A program made the translations under genes and the position numbers. From contig NZ_CABJFS010000001.1 in NCBI RefSeq assembly GCF_902364945.1, positions 248,001 to 312,000 on the forward strand: a stretch of 64,000 nt of DNA, in the 5' to 3' direction. Origin of the DNA: Collinsella aerofaciens. GTDB taxonomy: Bacteria; Actinomycetota; Coriobacteriia; Coriobacteriales; Coriobacteriaceae. Under the pieces are notes generated by a model. The model worked only from the letters and a program-made list of their open reading frames with translations. It was not told the origin of the DNA and made no database searches. Every line of letters begins with the position of its first letter. Position 1 is the first letter of the stretch. This document shows, piece after piece, positions 2,227-51,354 of this stretch.

Positions 2227-6705
<4,479 letters not shown>

Positions 6706-36929: not shown

Positions 36930-37490
36930 ATGCCTGCACGCCGTAACCGCAATAGCACGCTCCGATGCGATGCCGATCAGATCGAGCGGGAAGCAAAGCG
37001 CTTGGTCGACACGTATTCCGACCTCATCCTTCGATTGTGCTATTCGGCCCTTGGATCCGCTGACGACGCTCAAGACATCTGCCAGGACACGCTGATCAAG
37101 ATTCTCCAACGCACTCAACCGTTCGACTCGCTCGAACACGAACGTGCTTGGGTGATCCGAGTCGCACTGAACGCATGTCGCGATATCGGCCGTACGCACG
37201 CGAATCACCCGGTTGTCGACCTCGATTCGCTCCCCGATTTCTGCGCACCCGTAACACATACCGAGCAAGAATTCGCGCAACGCGACTGCGCCATTCTTTC
37301 CGCTGTCACGGCCCTGCCTCAAGCACAGCGCATCGCCATCTTTTTGCACTACTACGCAGGCATGAGCATCAGGGAAATCGCAGACGCCGTTCACGCGACG
37401 CCAGCTGCAACCGCCCAGCACCTTAGCCGCGGACGTGCGTCACTTCGGCTTTCCTTGAAAGGAGACCACAATGACTACGAATTCGAATGA
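36930..37490 (+). CDS. ECF-type RNA polymerase sigma factor, second pair
   Basis: 186 residues from ATG 36930 behind TTGGAGG; the frame extends 31 codons further without a ribosome site. Region 2: LVDTYSDLILRLCYSALGSA, DDAQDICQDTLIKILQ, ERAWVIRVALNACRDIGR; region 4: ALPQAQRIAIFLHYYAGMSI, REIADAVHATPAATAQHLSR. It is close in architecture to the sigma gene at 1397-1915. Its 3' end overlaps the anti-sigma gene by 20 bp. Confidence 0.88.
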   Translation: MPARRNRNSTLRCDADQIEREAKRLVDTYSDLILRLCYSALGSADDAQDICQDTLIKILQRTQPFDSLEHERAWVIRVALNACRDIGRTHANHPVVDLDSLPDFCAPVTHTEQEFAQRDCAILSAVTALPQAQRIAIFLHYYAGMSIREIADAVHATPAATAQHLSRGRASLRLSLKGDHNDYEFE

Positions 37491-38601
37491 CTATCGCCAC
37501 GCCCTGGAGCACATTTCGTTTACCGATAATGCGAAGCAGCACATGGCAAACTCGATTGCTCAGTCCGTCGCCTCGAGCGATGCGGCGACCGCTCAAAGCA
37601 ACTTTAATGGCACGCGACGCAAGCCGCGCATCGCCCGCCATCCCGTAAGAACAGTCGCTCGCATTGCCGCTGTAACGGCAGTCCTCGCTATCGTCATTGG
37701 AGGCGCTGGCACGGCTATGGCAACAGGCGTCCTGCCGCTTCCTTCTGACATGCTTTCCGACATCTTTGACGGACCTGCTTCTCAAACCGAGATCATCGAC
37801 CGTATTGGCCGGCCCGTCGGTGCTAGCTGCTCCAACAACGGAGTCACCGTGACCGCCGACGCCATCATGGGCGACAAGGATATGGTTACCATCGCCTATA
37901 CGCTTACGTTCGACGATCCCGCTGCCCTGAAAAAGCTTTCCGAGCCGGGCGAGAACGGAACTATCGCCGGAAGTGTCGATGGAAACGTATACGTTGATGG
38001 CGAGCATGGCGGCCAAGGCCAATCATGGCTCATTGACAAGAACCCCAATGACTCCAGCATTCAATACTTTGCACAGTTCAGCGTTGAATCACCCGGCCTT
38101 ATGGGCAGGACCGTCCGCACGCATATCAACTCTCTCGTTGTGCCACGTGCTGGCAAAGAGCTTCCCGAGTATAAGAAAATACTTACGGGCCCATGGGATC
38201 TTAAGTTCCAGCTGAATTACGAAGATACATCCGTTACGATTCCCGCGCCCAAATCGGTCAACTTTAACGGCACCAAGGCGACGATTCAAGAGGCCACCGT
38301 ATCCTGCGTTGGCGTTTCAGTCCGCTACAACATAGATCGTTCCATCGAACACGACAACAACAGCGGCAAGATGTCTCAAAACATGGAGGAGTCTATGGAT
38401 GCCGTTGGCAACATACCCCTCATCGTGACGTTCAAAGACGGTCATGTTGAGGACGCAACCAGCCACAGCGGCTATTTCGCAAATAAACTGGATAACGGCA
38501 CCACTGATGTCCACAAGACCTGGCCGTTCTCGCAAGTTTGTGACACAGACAAGATTGCAAGCGTACAAATTGGCGATACGGTCATTCCCATGAATTCGTA
38601 A
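37471..38601 (+). CDS. Membrane-anchored anti-sigma factor, DUF4179-like
   Basis: 376 residues, ATG with AAGGAG upstream inside the sigma gene's 3' end. N-terminal 55 residues are polar and basic, one membrane segment follows (about 60-84, AAVTAVLAIVIGGAGTAMAT), then an exterior domain of about 290 residues with SNNGVTVTADAIMGDKDMVT and IAYTLTFDDP, the DUF4179 look. Same order and design as the pair at 370-1915, where the sequence is clearly different, so the two pairs are paralogous systems rather than a recent duplication. Signal unknown. Confidence 0.72.
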   Translation: MTTNSNDYRHALEHISFTDNAKQHMANSIAQSVASSDAATAQSNFNGTRRKPRIARHPVRTVARIAAVTAVLAIVIGGAGTAMATGVLPLPSDMLSDIFDGPASQTEIIDRIGRPVGASCSNNGVTVTADAIMGDKDMVTIAYTLTFDDPAALKKLSEPGENGTIAGSVDGNVYVDGEHGGQGQSWLIDKNPNDSSIQYFAQFSVESPGLMGRTVRTHINSLVVPRAGKELPEYKKILTGPWDLKFQLNYEDTSVTIPAPKSVNFNGTKATIQEATVSCVGVSVRYNIDRSIEHDNNSGKMSQNMEESMDAVGNIPLIVTFKDGHVEDATSHSGYFANKLDNGTTDVHKTWPFSQVCDTDKIASVQIGDTVIPMNS

Positions 38602-38718
38602 CGCTACGCGGCTCGTATATGCACCCGGTTCCGCACTTCGCGTCTAAAGATGCGCTGTCATCGAGCAGCGTGAGCGCAAGGCCGCCCGTATGGTCGGCTG
38701 GGAACACCTCGTTGCGCT

Positions 38719-38760
38719 AAAAACCACCACGAAGGGGACCGGCACCTTTGTGGTGGTTTT
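38719..38760. repeat. Dispersed hairpin repeat R2, copy 4
   Basis: AAAACCACCACGAAGGGG with CACCTTTGTGGTGGTTTT; probably terminates the anti-sigma transcript. The downstream 21 bases match those after copy 3. Confidence 0.85.
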
Positions 38761-38790
38761 GCTGACTCGTCCGACCTGTCCCAACGGTTT

Positions 38791-38927
38791 GTCTCAATCT
38801 GTAACAGGTAGGGCCCAAATAATCGGTTAGCTGTTACAGATCGAGACAGACCACGGATGCTCAGCCGAAAATCTCAATCTGTAACAGGTAGGAACGATTT
38901 TGCCCCTTAGATGTTACAGATTGAGAT
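38791..38927. repeat. Regular alternating 17-bp repeat array, locus 1
   Basis: Four 17-bp repeats in alternating orientation at 38791-38807, 38831-38847, 38871-38887 and 38911-38927 (consensus RTCTCAATCTGTAACAG and its complement). The three intervals are each exactly 23 bp with different sequence, so the period is 40 bp. An identical layout exists at 49471-49607. It fills the gap between the anti-sigma gene and the leuB remnant. Confidence 0.88.
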
Positions 38928-38952
38928 ATTTGACAGCTTGAATCGGCATCGC

Positions 38953-39592
38953 CTACAGCGCGGCGACGACCTTGTCGCCCATCGTCGTGGTGCCGAGGAT
39001 CTTATCTGCCGGGGTGTTGACATCGGCGATGTCACGGGTGCGCCAGCCCTCGTCGAGCACGCGCGCCACGGCGCTCTCGATCCACGCGGCTTGCTCGCCC
39101 ATGTCGAGCGCGTAGGTCAGCAGCATCGCCACCGACAAGATTTGAGCCAGCGGATTGGCCACGCCGAGCCCCGCGATGTCAGGAGCGCTGCCAGCGCTCG
39201 GCCCAAACAGCGATACGCCATCATCCAGCGAGGCAGAGGCAAGCATACCGAGCGATCCGGTAATCTGAGCCGCCTCATCGGACAGGATGTCGCCGAACAT
39301 GTTCTCCGTCACCACGACGTCAAAGTCTGCCGGTCGACTGATGAGCTGCATGGCGGCGTTGTCGACGAGCAGGTCCTCAAGCTCCACGTCGGAGTACTCC
39401 TCGTCTTGCACGCGATGCACGATCTCGCGCCACATGCGGCTCGTCTCCAGCACGTTGCGCTTATCAACGCTCGTCACCTTGCCGCGACGTTTGCGCGCCG
39501 CCTCAAATGCCTGGCGCGCAATGCGCTCAATCTCGTACTCGCGATACTCCATCACGTCGACCGCACGCTGACCGGCCGCACCCGCAGCGCCC
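38953..39592 (-). pseudogene. leuB: leuB remnant (3-isopropylmalate dehydrogenase C-terminal part)
   Basis: Only about the last 205 codons remain. Recognisable: [80 protein letters not shown], and [20 protein letters not shown]. The normal YEP-(I/V)-HGS stretch before SAPDIAG reads FGPSAGS, so decay has begun. The N-terminal half, with most of the NAD and substrate site, is missing and replaced by a leuA remnant in another frame (join at about 39571-39593). The protein could not be a functional dehydrogenase. Confidence 0.85.
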
Positions 39593-40159
39593 GCGCAGGT
39601 CACGGATGCGGGCGCCAAAGTCCCACGGCATGTTGTAGCCCATCGTATCGGGGATGTTCACGACCGTGGCACCGGCCTTTACGGCCGCCTCGATAATGCG
39701 CACCAGAAACTCCTGATCGGAGCGGCCGGCATCCTCGGCATAAAACTCAACATCGTCAACGAACTTGCGAGCATGTTTGACGGCATGGATCGCTCACTCA
39801 ATTGCCCTTTCCTCAGTCATATGGAGCTTGTCGCGCAGGTGACTGGTGCTCACACCCAGCCCTGTATGGATACGGGGCCTCTGGGCCGTTTTGAGCGCCT
39901 CTGCAGCCACTTCGATATCCCTGTCGACAGCGCGCGTCAGGCCGCATACCGTGCATCGGTCGCCCGCAATCTTGCCAATCTCCTGTACGGAGCGAAAGTC
40001 ACCAGGACTCGAGATGGGAAAGCCCGCCTCGATAACGTCCACGTTCATGCGCACCAGCTGGCGGGCGATGAAGAGCTTTTCCTCGGTATTCATGCTGGCG
40101 CCCGGCGACTGCTCACCGTCGCACAGGGTGGCGTCAAAGATTGTGATTTTGCGGCTTAT
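39593..40159 (-). pseudogene. leuA: leuA remnant (2-isopropylmalate synthase N-terminal part)
   Basis: Translation reads [68 protein letters not shown], then after an in-frame TGA at 39796-39794 it continues in the same frame with [20 protein letters not shown] and INIPD-type [13 protein letters not shown] before leuB begins. Three lesions: ATA at the start position five bases after AGGAGG (40159-40157), Cys for the catalytic Arg of TLRDGEQ, and the TGA where Trp is expected. All are consistent with single G:C to A:T changes. The C-terminal regulatory part, leuC and leuD are absent. Confidence 0.88.
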
Positions 40160-45243: not shown

Positions 45244-45357
45244 TCGAGCGTGGATTTTCTCCCGTTTGAAATCGAGCGTGGATAATCTCCCACTATTGGC
45301 GTGCCCCCAAGGCCAAAGTGGCAGATTATCCACGCTCATTCTCCAGGCGGGAGAACT
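45244..45357. repeat. Repeat R5 (GAGCGTGGAT), left side of bgl cassette
   Basis: Two direct copies of a TCGAGCGTGGAT unit (45244, 45273) and one inverted copy; 45275-45293 and 45319-45337 form a 19-bp inverted repeat with one mismatch, and TTCTCCCG/CGGGAGAA enclose them. A related block lies at 49376-49445 beyond the other end of the cassette. 44939-45369 holds no gene. Confidence 0.8.
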
Positions 45358-47782: not shown

Positions 47783-49183
47783 ATGAAATATCAGGCAATG
47801 TCCGAAACAGTCCTAAAGGCTGTTGGCGGCAAAGAGAACATTACATCGGTAACTCATTGTGCGACGCGCCTTCGCATCGACGCACGAGACACCTCGATCA
47901 TCGATCTCCAGCTCGCCAAATCGGCCGATCAGGCGCTCGGGGCAGTAGTCAGCGGTGGCCAGCTTCAGGTGATCATCGGCCCCAACGTCACCGAGGCTTA
48001 CAACGACTTCCTCGACTTCGCGGGAATCGAAGTCGGCGGCGGCGCGGTTGCCGATGATGCCCAAACCGCCAAGGATCTTGCAGAGGGTATCAAAAGCGGC
48101 AACACTGCCATGAGCCTGGTTGAGAAATTCGGAAATGTCTCCGCACAGGTATTCATGCCCATCGTCCCGGCGCTCATCGTAGGCGGACTCATTCTTTCGA
48201 TTAAGAATCTCCTGGTCAATTATTGTGGATTGAGCACCGATAGCGGAACTGCTCAGGTTCTGCTGGCGATCTTCAGCGCCTCATTTAGCTTCCTGCCCGT
48301 TTACCTAGGCTACCAGCTCGCCGCTGTCATGAAGATGCAGCCTATCATGGGCGCGCTGCTGGGCGCAATCATGATTAGCTCGTCTATTAGCGGTGCTGAG
48401 GGTCTCGACTTTCTTGGCATCCCCATCCCGACGAATGACTACTCGAGCACGGTGGTGCCAATCGTACTGGGCGTTGTGTTCATGTACTTTGTTGATCGCG
48501 GTCTTCAGAAAATCATCCCGGACGTTACCAAACTGTTCTTGAAGCCGCTACTCACCATGTTTATCGTCGTGCCTGTTGAGCTGATTATCCTCGGCCCCGC
48601 CGGCAGCATGATGGGCTACGCGCTGAGTGATGCCGTCACGTGGCTCATGGATAACGTGGCATTTATCGCTACTCCAATCCTTGCAGCCCTTAACCCCTAT
48701 TTTGTCATGCTCGGTCTTGATAAGGCCTACATCGCAATCGAAGTTACGAGCTTGGCGCAGCTCGGCTGGGCGCCCATCATCTTTGGCTTCATCTCAAACC
48801 TCTGCATTGGCGGCACGAGTCTCGCCTTGGCAACTGCAATGAAAGGCAACAAGGAGAAGAGGGGTATGGTCACCACGGTTGCCGTCACCGCACTCTGCGG
48901 CGTAACTGAGCCCGCGTTCTACGGCTGCCTCATCGAGCGTCCCCGCCTGCTTGTCGGCACGGCAATCGGCGCCCTCTGCGCGGGACTCCCCGCAGGTATC
49001 TTCGTCCTGAAGGAGTATGTTGCGGGAGCATGCCCCGGCCTTCTTTCGGCGCTGATTTTTATCGCTCCCGATGGATCCATGGGCAACTTCGTACTGGCGT
49101 GCGTTGTCGCCGTCATCGCCATCGTCGTCTCGTTCATCGCTGCACGCGTGATCATCAAGAAGAACCCCAACTATATTGAGTAA
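47783..49183 (+). CDS. PTS beta-glucoside transporter EIIBC
   Basis: 466 residues. EIIB domain at 1-85 with phospho-cysteine C26 in THCATRLRI; then a glucose-superfamily EIIC from about 105, with around ten membrane segments and the GVTEPAFYGC loop near residue 377. Glucoside permeases of the BglF type usually carry a C-terminal EIIA (about 625 residues); here the protein ends after EIIC (KKNPNYIE). The phosphate must come from a separate EIIA, possibly the one at 26635-27198. Shine-Dalgarno AGGAGA overlaps the intergenic nine bases. Confidence 0.92.
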   Translation: MKYQAMSETVLKAVGGKENITSVTHCATRLRIDARDTSIIDLQLAKSADQALGAVVSGGQLQVIIGPNVTEAYNDFLDFAGIEVGGGAVADDAQTAKDLAEGIKSGNTAMSLVEKFGNVSAQVFMPIVPALIVGGLILSIKNLLVNYCGLSTDSGTAQVLLAIFSASFSFLPVYLGYQLAAVMKMQPIMGALLGAIMISSSISGAEGLDFLGIPIPTNDYSSTVVPIVLGVVFMYFVDRGLQKIIPDVTKLFLKPLLTMFIVVPVELIILGPAGSMMGYALSDAVTWLMDNVAFIATPILAALNPYFVMLGLDKAYIAIEVTSLAQLGWAPIIFGFISNLCIGGTSLALATAMKGNKEKRGMVTTVAVTALCGVTEPAFYGCLIERPRLLVGTAIGALCAGLPAGIFVLKEYVAGACPGLLSALIFIAPDGSMGNFVLACVVAVIAIVVSFIAARVIIKKNPNYIE

Positions 49184-49324: not shown

Positions 49325-49375
49325 TAAAGCCGTCGATAGACAATCGGTGTTTACCTTAGCCCCCTATCCAAGTTA

Positions 49376-49445
49376 ATTATCCACGCTCGTTCTCCGGTCG
49401 GGAGATTTTCTTCTCTCTCGTGTCCAGAAATCCACGCTCGAGCAG
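49376..49445. repeat. Repeat R5, right side of bgl cassette
   Basis: TTATCCACGCTCGTTCTCC, then CGGGAGA, and a second TCCACGCTCGAG at the end. The first part matches 45326-45354 on the other side of the bgl cassette. Confidence 0.7.
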
Positions 49446-49470: not shown

Positions 49471-49607
49471 GTCTCGATCTGTAACAGCAGGAGACCTATT
49501 CCGCTTCTACATGTTACAGATCAAGATATTCCTAAAACACCCTAAGTTTCATCTCAATCTGTAACAGTTAGATGCCAAATATCGGTCTTGGCGTTACAGA
49601 TTTAGAC
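49471..49607. repeat. Regular alternating 17-bp repeat array, locus 2
   Basis: Repeats at 49471-49487, 49511-49527, 49551-49567 and 49591-49607 in alternating orientation, with three 23-bp intervals: the exact geometry of 38791-38927. Consensus RTCTCAATCTGTAACAG. The left-orientation copies are best conserved; the inverted ones carry 1-4 changes. The intervals share no clear similarity with those of locus 1. Confidence 0.88.
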
Positions 49608-49715: not shown

Positions 49716-49790
49716 TGGAGCCAGTGACAGGAATCGAACCTGCAACCCACTGATTACAAATCAGTTGCGCTACCGTTGCGCCACACTGGC
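49716..49790 (-). tRNA. tRNA-Thr (TGT)
   Basis: Acceptor GCCAGTG/CACTGGC, D arm GGCGCAACGGTAGCGC, anticodon TGT in CTGATTTGTAATCAG, T arm CAGGTTCGATTCCTG, encoded CCA. Confidence 0.95.
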
Positions 49791-49942: not shown

Positions 49943-50004
49943 CTTCGCCAGAACGAATAGTTTTAATTACAATTGGCTATATAAAACTATTCGTTCTGGC
50001 GAAG
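49943..50004. promoter_or_regulatory. Perfect 23-bp inverted repeat, likely operator/promoter
   Basis: 49943-49965 and 49982-50004 are exact complements (left CTTCGCCAGAACGAATAG, five more bases) around a 16-bp AT-rich centre that includes TATATA. It ends ten bases before the HTH-HipA gene start, so it is probably the autoregulatory site of that gene. Confidence 0.75.
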
Positions 50005-50013
50005 GGTTTCGCG

Positions 50014-51354
50014 ATGTTGACTACAAAGGAAGCAGCCGAACTGCTCGGCATCACCCCGCGCAGGGTGCAGGAGCTCATTAAGAACGGCGCGCTGACCGCC
50101 CGCAAGGCTTCTGGCGTGTGGCTTATCGACAAAGACAGCGTAGACACGCGACTCCGCTCCGCAACCAAAAGAGGGGGACGGCCTCGTCGCGGGCATGGGA
50201 AAAGCGAAATCGCATTTACCCTCATGAACCGCACGCACGAAGTGGCCCAGCTGGTCTACAGCAGATCACGGAAAGACTTCACCCACATCGGCGCCGACGT
50301 CGATCGTGCCCACGCCCCTATTGGAGTACTTGGCCCCAATAGTCCCGTGTCGCTCGACTCTTTCCGCATTTGGTGGCGAGGCCGCGGTATCCCGCTCGCG
50401 CGCATTGGGCTTGCATCCCTGTTGGCAGAAGCAGCAGTCGATGTTCCCGACGAACTCATCCAGCGAAATCTTGGCCTCTCCTTATCCGACCAGTATTGGA
50501 TTAGACCCCAAGGCTCCGGTCTCGCGTGGGAAGATATCAATTTCTTCAATAATGCTTTTGACGACGTCTCTCTCAGCATCGCGCCCTTCGCCCCAGAGGG
50601 CAAGGCAGCTGCCGCAAAGCCCGACAACACCTCGGACGGCAATCTTCAAAAGTACTGGACATGCGAGGATGACCGTCGAATACTCCACAAGGCAGGTGCG
50701 CACCTGAACCAGGAACCCTATAACGAGATGGTGGCGACCGCACTTCACCGTCGCATCCTAAACGCTTGCGATTATGTACCCTATTCGCTCGAAGGCACAG
50801 GTACTTCTGCCTTGAGCACATGCAATGTCTTCTTAACTGACGAAGAAGAATATGTCTCTGCGTTCTATGTAAACCAGCATGCAAATGCAGACGAGCGACT
50901 AACCGATTACGAACGGTATGTAGCAAACTGTGAGGAGCTTGGAGCGACAGATATAAAAGACGCCCTTGACCGCATGATCGTATGTGACGACATCATTGCC
51001 AACTACGATCGTCATTGGCGCAACTTCGGCCTCGTGCGAAACGTCAACTCACTGGTCTGCAGACCAGCCCCCATCTTCGATTCGGGCTCATCACTCTGGT
51101 GCAACATATCACTAGAGGAGCTTAGGGCGGGAGAGCACAGTTTTACCAGCGCACAATTTCATTCAAGCCCCGCCAAACAAATGTTGCTCGTCGAGGACAT
51201 GGGCTGGTTTGACGGCGACAAACTCGAAGGCTTCGTTGGCGAGGCAATCGAGATTCTGTCCAGAAACAACGCGCTCACGGCAAGGCTGCCATATCTAAAA
51301 GAGGCGCTTACATGGCGCCTCCGTAGAATGATCGACATCGCTGAATGGAGTTAG
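50014..51354 (+). CDS. HTH-HipA-like kinase fusion protein
   Basis: 446 residues. Residues 1-50 are an excisionase/MerR-like helix-turn-helix (LTTKEAAELLGITPRRVQEL, IKNGALTARKASGVWLIDKD). The C-terminal half resembles the HipA kinase core: a glycine loop region SDGNLQKYW (about 210), EPYNEMVATALHRRI, the catalytic loop DDIIANYDRHWRNFGLVRN (about 328) and PAPIFDSGSSLWC in place of the metal-binding DFG-type motif. The middle, about 60-200, matches nothing I recognise. HipA and its DNA-binding partner are normally two genes; here they are one. TTG/ATG start uncertainty is small; ATG is at 50014, close to a weak GAAGGG. No separate antitoxin is adjacent. Confidence 0.72.
   Translation: MLTTKEAAELLGITPRRVQELIKNGALTARKASGVWLIDKDSVDTRLRSATKRGGRPRRGHGKSEIAFTLMNRTHEVAQLVYSRSRKDFTHIGADVDRAHAPIGVLGPNSPVSLDSFRIWWRGRGIPLARIGLASLLAEAAVDVPDELIQRNLGLSLSDQYWIRPQGSGLAWEDINFFNNAFDDVSLSIAPFAPEGKAAAAKPDNTSDGNLQKYWTCEDDRRILHKAGAHLNQEPYNEMVATALHRRILNACDYVPYSLEGTGTSALSTCNVFLTDEEEYVSAFYVNQHANADERLTDYERYVANCEELGATDIKDALDRMIVCDDIIANYDRHWRNFGLVRNVNSLVCRPAPIFDSGSSLWCNISLEELRAGEHSFTSAQFHSSPAKQMLLVEDMGWFDGDKLEGFVGEAIEILSRNNALTARLPYLKEALTWRLRRMIDIAEWS

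Follow-up and report, generated by a model that had tools for sequence, protein, structure and literature searches.

Arrays of a 57-bp inverted-repeat unit confined to one Collinsella clade, a candidate DNA-level docking platform for a sequence-specific protein

Results

Two arrays of alternating repeats in the window

Few genetic tools are available for Collinsella aerofaciens, a bacterium common in the human gut. The window analysed here, a stretch of 64,000 nucleotides of its genome, contains two intergenic arrays of short repeats. The first lies between a gene for a DUF4179 protein and the 3′ end of a leuB-like gene, and the second between a PTS EIIBC gene and a tRNA gene (Table 1). The original prediction, made from the letters of the window, described four 17-bp repeats in alternating orientation with 23-bp intervals and a 40-bp period, together with a second copy of this arrangement, and all of these features are exact in the window. 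Allowing up to three mismatches, RTCTCAATCTGTAACAG has eight matches, at 38791 (+), 38831 (-), 38871 (+), 38911 (-), 49471 (+), 49511 (-), 49551 (+) and 49591 (-), where 0.13 would be expected by chance; eight matches were reached in 0 of 100 shuffles of the window. The period had also been described as close to four helical turns, which is approximate only, since 40 bp corresponds to 3.8 turns at 10.5 bp per turn.

Table 1. Features of the two arrays and their surroundings. Positions are those of the window.
Feature	Position	Strand	Description
DUF4179 gene	37471..38601	+	left of array 1
Terminator-like hairpin of upstream gene	38720..38760	+	separate, outside array 1; from RNA fold
Array 1	38791..38927	.	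two 57-bp units and a 23-bp linker
Unit 1 (array 1)	38791..38847	.	repeats 38791-38807 (+) and 38831-38847 (-); 23-bp interval with central AAATAA
Linker, units 1/2	38848..38870	.	23 bp
Unit 2 (array 1)	38871..38927	.	repeats 38871-38887 (+) and 38911-38927 (-); interval centre ATTTT
leuB-like gene	38953..39603	-	3′ end faces array 1
PTS EIIBC gene	47783..49183	+	left of array 2
Array 2	49471..49607	.	two 57-bp units and a 23-bp linker
Unit 3 (array 2)	49471..49527	.	repeats 49471-49487 (+) and 49511-49527 (-)
Linker, units 3/4	49528..49550	.	23 bp
Unit 4 (array 2)	49551..49607	.	repeats 49551-49567 (+) and 49591-49607 (-); last repeat with 3 mismatches
tRNA gene	49719..49790	-	right of array 2

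The unit is rigid and the array is looser

In the nearest genome compared (G001), 101 repeat matches were found within three mismatches, against one for a reversed control pattern. Scanned repeat by repeat, the arrays of this genome follow a +,-,+,- order with even repeat numbers, the exceptions being overlapping or weak (3-4 mismatch) extra hits, which indicates that the family is built from 57-bp inverted-repeat units, of which G001 has 46 in 19 arrays. Two further genomes, G042 and G014, have 18 arrays with 43 units and 16 arrays with 41 units, respectively. Arrays hold one to five units, and 46 of the 53 arrays in these three genomes hold two to five, mostly with differing interiors.

At the array loci of the same three genomes, facing repeats are separated by an inner interval of 23 bp in 130 of 131 cases, the single exception measuring 24 bp, and the spacing of other genomic copies is thus not random. 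Of the 81 linkers that join units, 52 have 23 bp, 26 have 24 bp, two have 22 bp and one has 16 bp, and inner interval and linker differ in how often they are 23 bp or some other length (Fisher p = 4e-13). The unit is therefore rigid and the array looser, so that, of the uniform 40-bp period initially proposed, the fixed inner interval stands whereas 29 of 81 linkers depart from it.

Across 50 units, the half-site can be written as RTCTCRATCTGTAACA, after which come two variable bases, TAG in many units, a G+C-rich stretch of five bases and finally the A/T centre; the DNA just outside the repeat is A/T-rich. The whole interval accordingly has the plan nnTAG, G+C-rich, central A/T, G+C-rich, CTAnn, and AAA or TTT occupies its middle three positions in 130 of 162 distinct units. 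TGT-A-ACA is the only symmetric part of the 17-bp repeat. Pairs of units with at least 20 of 25 identical interval bases number five in G001, two in G042 and eight in G014, where a column-preserving shuffle within each genome gives 0.15, 0.08 and 0.17. The intervals had been called unrelated; they have a common plan and are shared within genomes above the shuffled expectation, although it remains the case that most interiors differ.

The array family is confined to one clade

Searching 43 Collinsella genomes with the core pattern gave 22-58 units in each of 22 genomes, a single unit in two and none in 19; with up to three mismatches allowed, three of the 21 array-poor genomes have one unit. 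No unit was found in the other 152 of 153 genera in a 396-genome sample of the class, and one exact unit form, searched for in public genome contigs, turned up in six stretches, all from Collinsella. The family is confined to one clade. In a DnaA tree of 29 genomes, which included nine of the 22 array-bearing ones, these nine group together, apart from the other Collinsella, on a very long branch (1.76 changes per column).

Genomes G028 and G030 each carry a single unit upstream of clpB. The clpB region of G028 is 90% identical to that of G001, and that of G030 is 98% identical to G028, despite DnaA proteins that are less than 58% identical to the query. This unit is therefore best read as transferred, and the transfer of clpB was likely recent. 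The product of the TetR gene beside the lone unit was considered as the binder and rejected, since G028 and G030 were the only genomes of the 43 to give a match (E up to 1e-20) and the unit looks transferred. The single unit of G013 adjoins a tRNA-like sequence near a contig end. No equivalent family of other sequence was found in a 400-kb sample of the array-free genome G028, in which no fixed-distance inverted word occurs more than four times; dispersed words of AAAATGTGTGGGGTTTA (9-10 times) and AGTTAACTCTCG (nine times) were noted in this sample (L101-L120).

Among plasmid records there was one match, a 900-kb C. aerofaciens record that is filed as a plasmid but carries gltB and smpB, and no arrays were found in phage records. 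On a prophage-like IMG/VR contig (IMGVR_UViG_2857861838, L068) the array lies in the host part: homology to G042 extends 73 bp beyond it, and an integrase gene, with a PHROG integrase match of 3.7e-28 and no Pfam match, lies further on, at about 120 bp from the array. No description of the repeat letters or of Collinsella repeats was found among the open-access papers listed by the literature searches. One paper gives one Collinsella RNA candidate and 250 palindromic candidates (PMC8040213), which may overlap the family described here.

Repeat cores are conserved between species

Matched units were compared between species, with the core defined as repeat positions 2-4 and 7-16. In 125 one-way-best unit pairs, the number of differing sites is 65 of 3250 (2.0%) in the core, 777 of 3125 (24.9%) in the interval, 4017 of 20314 (19.8%) in the 110-bp flanks and 231 of 750 at repeat positions 1, 5 and 6. 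Some of these pairs are probably paralogs, since the intervals diverge more than the flanks and more than they do in a reciprocal set. That set of 72 reciprocal-best pairs gave the same picture, with a core that is about 2% different and an interval that is 17% different, and because units were detected via their repeats (up to four mismatches a side), which under-counts strongly decayed ones, the core conservation is biased somewhat upward. Lone repeats make up three of 268 sites. Two purine positions swap A and G in 26% and 36% of the reciprocal pairs, and this free toggling indicates that mutation is not low there.

The evidence favours a DNA-level element over RNA

Pairing between the two arms of a unit is possible, and strong folding was obtained around array 1, at z = -8.7 over 236 nt that also hold the separate terminator-like hairpin preceding the array. 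In addition, a stop codon is no more than 60 bp away from 11 of 29 arrays. Since arrays near stop codons may be transcribed and their arms can fold, an RNA role is possible at some loci. As an account of the family, an RNA element, either a bidirectional terminator or an mRNA-stabilising hairpin, is highly improbable. The two halves of the interval match each other less than shuffles do (0.322 vs 0.423; none of 1000 shuffles scored lower), and matching between the two repeats shows no clear excess (0.904 vs 0.899, 128 of 1000 shuffles as high) apart from a weak one at repeat position 5 (19 of 1000). These values are for 162 distinct units, in which no compensatory pairing was seen in the intervals; a set of 73 units gave the same result. 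No structure was obtained on folding two variants of the 17-bp repeat.

No terminator-like site was detected in window positions 38500-39000 with a loop limit of 8, and the seven such sites around array 2 all lie outside it. No conserved T run was seen beside the repeat in 50 units, and a search of the window with Rfam gave five matches, all of them tRNAs and none at the arrays. The earlier dismissal of a terminator is thus upheld, and we rejected an RNA hairpin or terminator as the identity of the arrays on the grounds that covariation is absent, that terminators are separate from the arrays, and that 18 of 55 arrays lie between divergent genes.

Arrays occupy gaps of every orientation beside unrelated genes

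None of the 55 arrays in the window, G001, G042 and G014 lies inside a called gene. Nineteen are between convergent, 17 between codirectional and 18 between divergent genes, with one at a contig edge, and as orthologous loci were counted once per genome these orientation counts are not independent. Array-free gaps of at least 150 bp at the same loci comprise 23 convergent, 39 divergent and 57 codirectional cases. Array ends come as near as 8 bp to stop codons and stay at least 66 bp from start codons, bar one at -17 with simple gene calls.

The 53 gene starts that arrays face are at a median distance of 169 bp, where operators do occur, and the arrays could in principle be operators through which one regulator governs a defined regulon. 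We consider this very unlikely, given that the neighbouring genes are functionally unrelated and often housekeeping (tuf, prfC, clpB, glmS, gltB, dxs and others), that 19 of the 55 arrays lie between convergent genes, and that prfC is found with or without an array. An origin-terminus bias was likewise discarded, the origin-ward trend of arrays in G042 not being significant (p = 0.09). The array sites were also considered as DnaA boxes. TGTAACA was absent from eight dnaA-gene loci taken with about 1.5 kb on each side (five array-bearing, three array-free), but the canonical box was also absent from the five array-bearing ones, so that this absence says little about such a reading.

Turnover of units and arrays at single loci

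At the gpm-gltB locus, one, two or three units are present in the eight array-bearing genomes compared, with shared intervals and whole units absent in register. The gpm protein search matched 12 of 43 genomes at the cut-off, and the four array-free genomes among them have different upstream DNA and no empty site. The prfC locus has two to four units in 11 of 21 genomes and no array in the other 10, which indicates that the array is not needed there; G027 (72% complete) gave no match in the prfC search. These arrays include several largely different interval sets with unchanged repeats at the same position in different species. Compared with the empty sites, the 11 filled genomes contain the array and 36-54 further bases, and inspection by eye revealed no clear duplication of the target. 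Since the early-branching genomes G029, G043 and G012 of the clade have the array, the empty sites are more simply read as losses. A comparison of strains, as had been suggested at the outset, therefore reveals both presence or absence of an array (prfC) and variation in unit number (gpm-gltB).

In one G042 unit (L081, ~2658-4100) lies a 1.4-kb insertion with inverted terminal repeats and, by eye, the same short sequence on both sides, resembling an insertion sequence that hit the palindrome.

Synteny often breaks at or near arrays

Among 35 comparable array pairs from G001, G014 and G042, 21 align on one side only, against seven breaks in 152.6 kb of flank, a comparison in which the pairs are not independent and which has no control matched for intergenic length. 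In 12 of the 21 one-sided pairs, from four loci, the alignment ends within the array or at its far edge, in one case via an insertion inside a unit; several of the remaining pairs break at 48 to ~830 bp from the array. A stretch of ~27 kb in G042 (L161/L162, G042:C1 ~1050.9-1078 kb) is bounded on either side by array units; at the corresponding place, G001 and G014 have a single two-unit array. It contains kinase, HSP70-VWA, double-GTPase and zinc-ribbon genes, and no integrase or recombinase was found among the 10 of its proteins that were scanned. Left of array 2, the window has ~4 kb, including a PTS gene and genes for an RpiR-type regulator and a family 1 glycosyl hydrolase, that G001, G042 and G014 lack next to the same left flank, and the leuB-like gene next to array 1 is matched in only three of the 22 array-bearing genomes.

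These breaks, the G042 island bounded by units and the rarity of the leuB-like gene that adjoins array 1 are what would be expected if the arrays were recombination sites, that is, hot spots for the exchange of gene modules either by a dedicated recombinase or by homologous recombination via the shared repeats. We nevertheless regard this as decidedly unlikely to be what the arrays are, since several breaks are displaced from the array, the ~4-kb insertion of the window stops, by eye, about 100 bp from array 2, and intergenic gaps are natural insertion points. Of the recombination site cluster originally listed as a possibility, the association of breaks with arrays stands; a recombinase is absent from the 10 island proteins, although homologous recombination would suffice.

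Discussion

Relation to known repeat systems

BIMEs are described as REPs at regular spacing whose orientation alternates, with IHF, gyrase and PolI binding to the E. coli elements (PMC2817692); REPINs are inverted REP doublets that cluster beside RAYT genes and whose spacers keep their length and their hairpin pairing with compensatory changes (PMC3116915); and REPs are imperfect palindromes, with a stem of 5-13 bp in the GTAG families, that have a GTAG or CGTC tag at one repeat end (PMC3733652). Set against these descriptions, the Collinsella arrays resemble BIMEs and BIME-2 arrays in being intergenic, regularly spaced, alternating repeats in tandem modules. They resemble REPINs in their inverted doublet unit, with conserved ends, a less conserved interior of kept length, some tandem clusters and single ends as remnants. 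However, the Collinsella repeat is not an imperfect palindrome or hairpin and has no fixed tag, with GTAG at positions 18-21 in just 32 of 324 half-sites and CGTC or GACG in the first 24 bases of 21 of 324. The inner distance is fixed to the base, usually around an A-tract centre, and, unlike BIMEs, arrays lie in divergent (18 of 55) as well as convergent (19 of 55) gaps. No RAYT gene is flanked by Collinsella repeats in G001, G042 or G014, and, in contrast to REPINs, the unit is shorter (57 bp), the spacers have no compensatory changes and the arrays of these three genomes are not beside RAYT genes. Because the hairpin, the GTAG/CGTC tag, the flanking RAYT gene (three genomes) and the compensatory spacer changes are all missing, we do not class the family as BIME, although in layout it works like one.

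A selfish origin was also weighed, in which a transposase, RAYT or another, spreads the paired ends and these are conserved because it needs them, with host function secondary or absent. It would explain the BIME/REPIN-like build (alternating, regular, extragenic inverted doublets with less conserved spacers), and the interval sequence that paralogous units have in common, and Y1_Tnp genes are present in 37 of 43 genus genomes. Those genes occur in array-bearing and array-free genomes alike, and a RAYT-driven REP was rejected on this basis. G042 and G014 have two and four Y1_Tnp genes, respectively, all of them more than 100 kb from the nearest listed unit, and the single one of G001 is on contig C32, which has no repeat among the matches listed; G007 has an IS200-type copy ~2 kb away from an array. 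The repeat lacks a hairpin and, mostly, GTAG, compensatory changes are absent, resident matched copies hold their cores while neighbouring bases diverge, and G001 has no lone repeat-ended element among the matches listed (100 of 101). Selfish repeats therefore seem an unlikely explanation of the arrays. The non-autonomous mobile unit initially envisaged is possible for the origin of the family, but no autonomous partner with the same ends was found in G001 among those matches, of which all with up to two mismatches belong to arrays, and the arrays at the loci compared look inherited, lost or exchanged.

The lack of such a partner, together with tandem linkers of ~23 bp, also sets the family apart from MITEs, with which it shares the form of a short inverted-repeat element dispersed between genes. 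Integron attC sites, recognised by IntI, occur as one site per cassette, and tandem units of one fixed length argue against them. As in a CRISPR, short repeats alternate with variable intervals of constant length, but the Collinsella repeats change orientation, the intervals are inherited and in part related by descent, and there are 16-19 arrays in each of three genomes. No Cas family was found among 40 of 41 array-flanking genes of the window and G001 (Pfam, E up to 1e-5), so that CRISPR, which had been dismissed from the alternation alone, stays rejected.

A docking platform for a predicted DNA-binding protein

Of the possibilities raised at the outset, a multi-dimer protein-binding platform fits best: the half-sites are frozen, the inner spacing is invariant, there is no sign of RNA pairing and all gene orientations are used, the binder itself being a predicted one. 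We thus favour, as the probable explanation, that the family is a DNA-level docking platform for a sequence-specific protein, a reading that draws on the geometry, clade restriction, core conservation, missing compensatory pairing, intergenic placement and turnover observed above. The platforms would be intergenic and spread genome-wide, with a working unit of 57 bp in which two inverted RTCTCRATCTGTAACA half-sites, each in a 17-bp frame, stand exactly 23 bp apart around a central A-tract. Each unit would be bound by the putative protein, most simply as a dimer or tetramer touching both half-sites. A long asymmetric half-site placed head-to-head at one exact distance around an A-tract would suit a dimeric DNA-bending protein, and its 17 bp are presumably similar in length to the half-sites of proteins with two HTH motifs, such as those of the AraC family.

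Tandem units would seat several such complexes side by side, and these may bend or wrap the DNA, organising or insulating it on a local scale, in a way comparable to the binding of gyrase by the BIME-2 arrays of E. coli. As unit number varies and the array is absent at some loci, the function would be collective and not essential at any single gene. A broader and more tentative version of the platform reading is a clade-specific chromosome-architecture system, in which the putative protein would occupy the 22-58 A-tract-centred 57-bp units of each genome, side by side on arrays of one to five units, and set loops or boundaries, its sites doubling as junctions for module swaps. We see this as possible, though on balance doubtful.

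The regularity and constraint of this repeat family, and its restriction to one clade, point to a DNA-binding protein with no description in the literature searched, and the 57-bp unit offers an exact bait with clear mutant controls for finding it. Presence or absence and unit number at fixed loci provide natural experiments and a marker for strain typing. The family also separates features that are confounded in BIMEs, since it combines regular alternating arrays with repeats that form no hairpin and no flanking RAYT gene.

Other features of the window

Three minor observations concern the surroundings of the arrays. The leuB-like gene seems to be split across reading frames (38953-39750), its Pfam match covering only profile positions 148-348 of 348. 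Repeats of the TTATCCACGCTC type were noted by eye at 45320-45350 and 49370-49445, flanking the inserted stretch with the regulator, GH1 and PTS genes, and also beside the same array (array 2) in G001, G042 and G014. Finally, an inverted repeat at 49943-50004 with exact 23-bp arms (49943-49965 and 49982-50004) lies directly upstream of an HTH_17 gene at 50014, and a similar HTH_17 gene is found near an array in G001.
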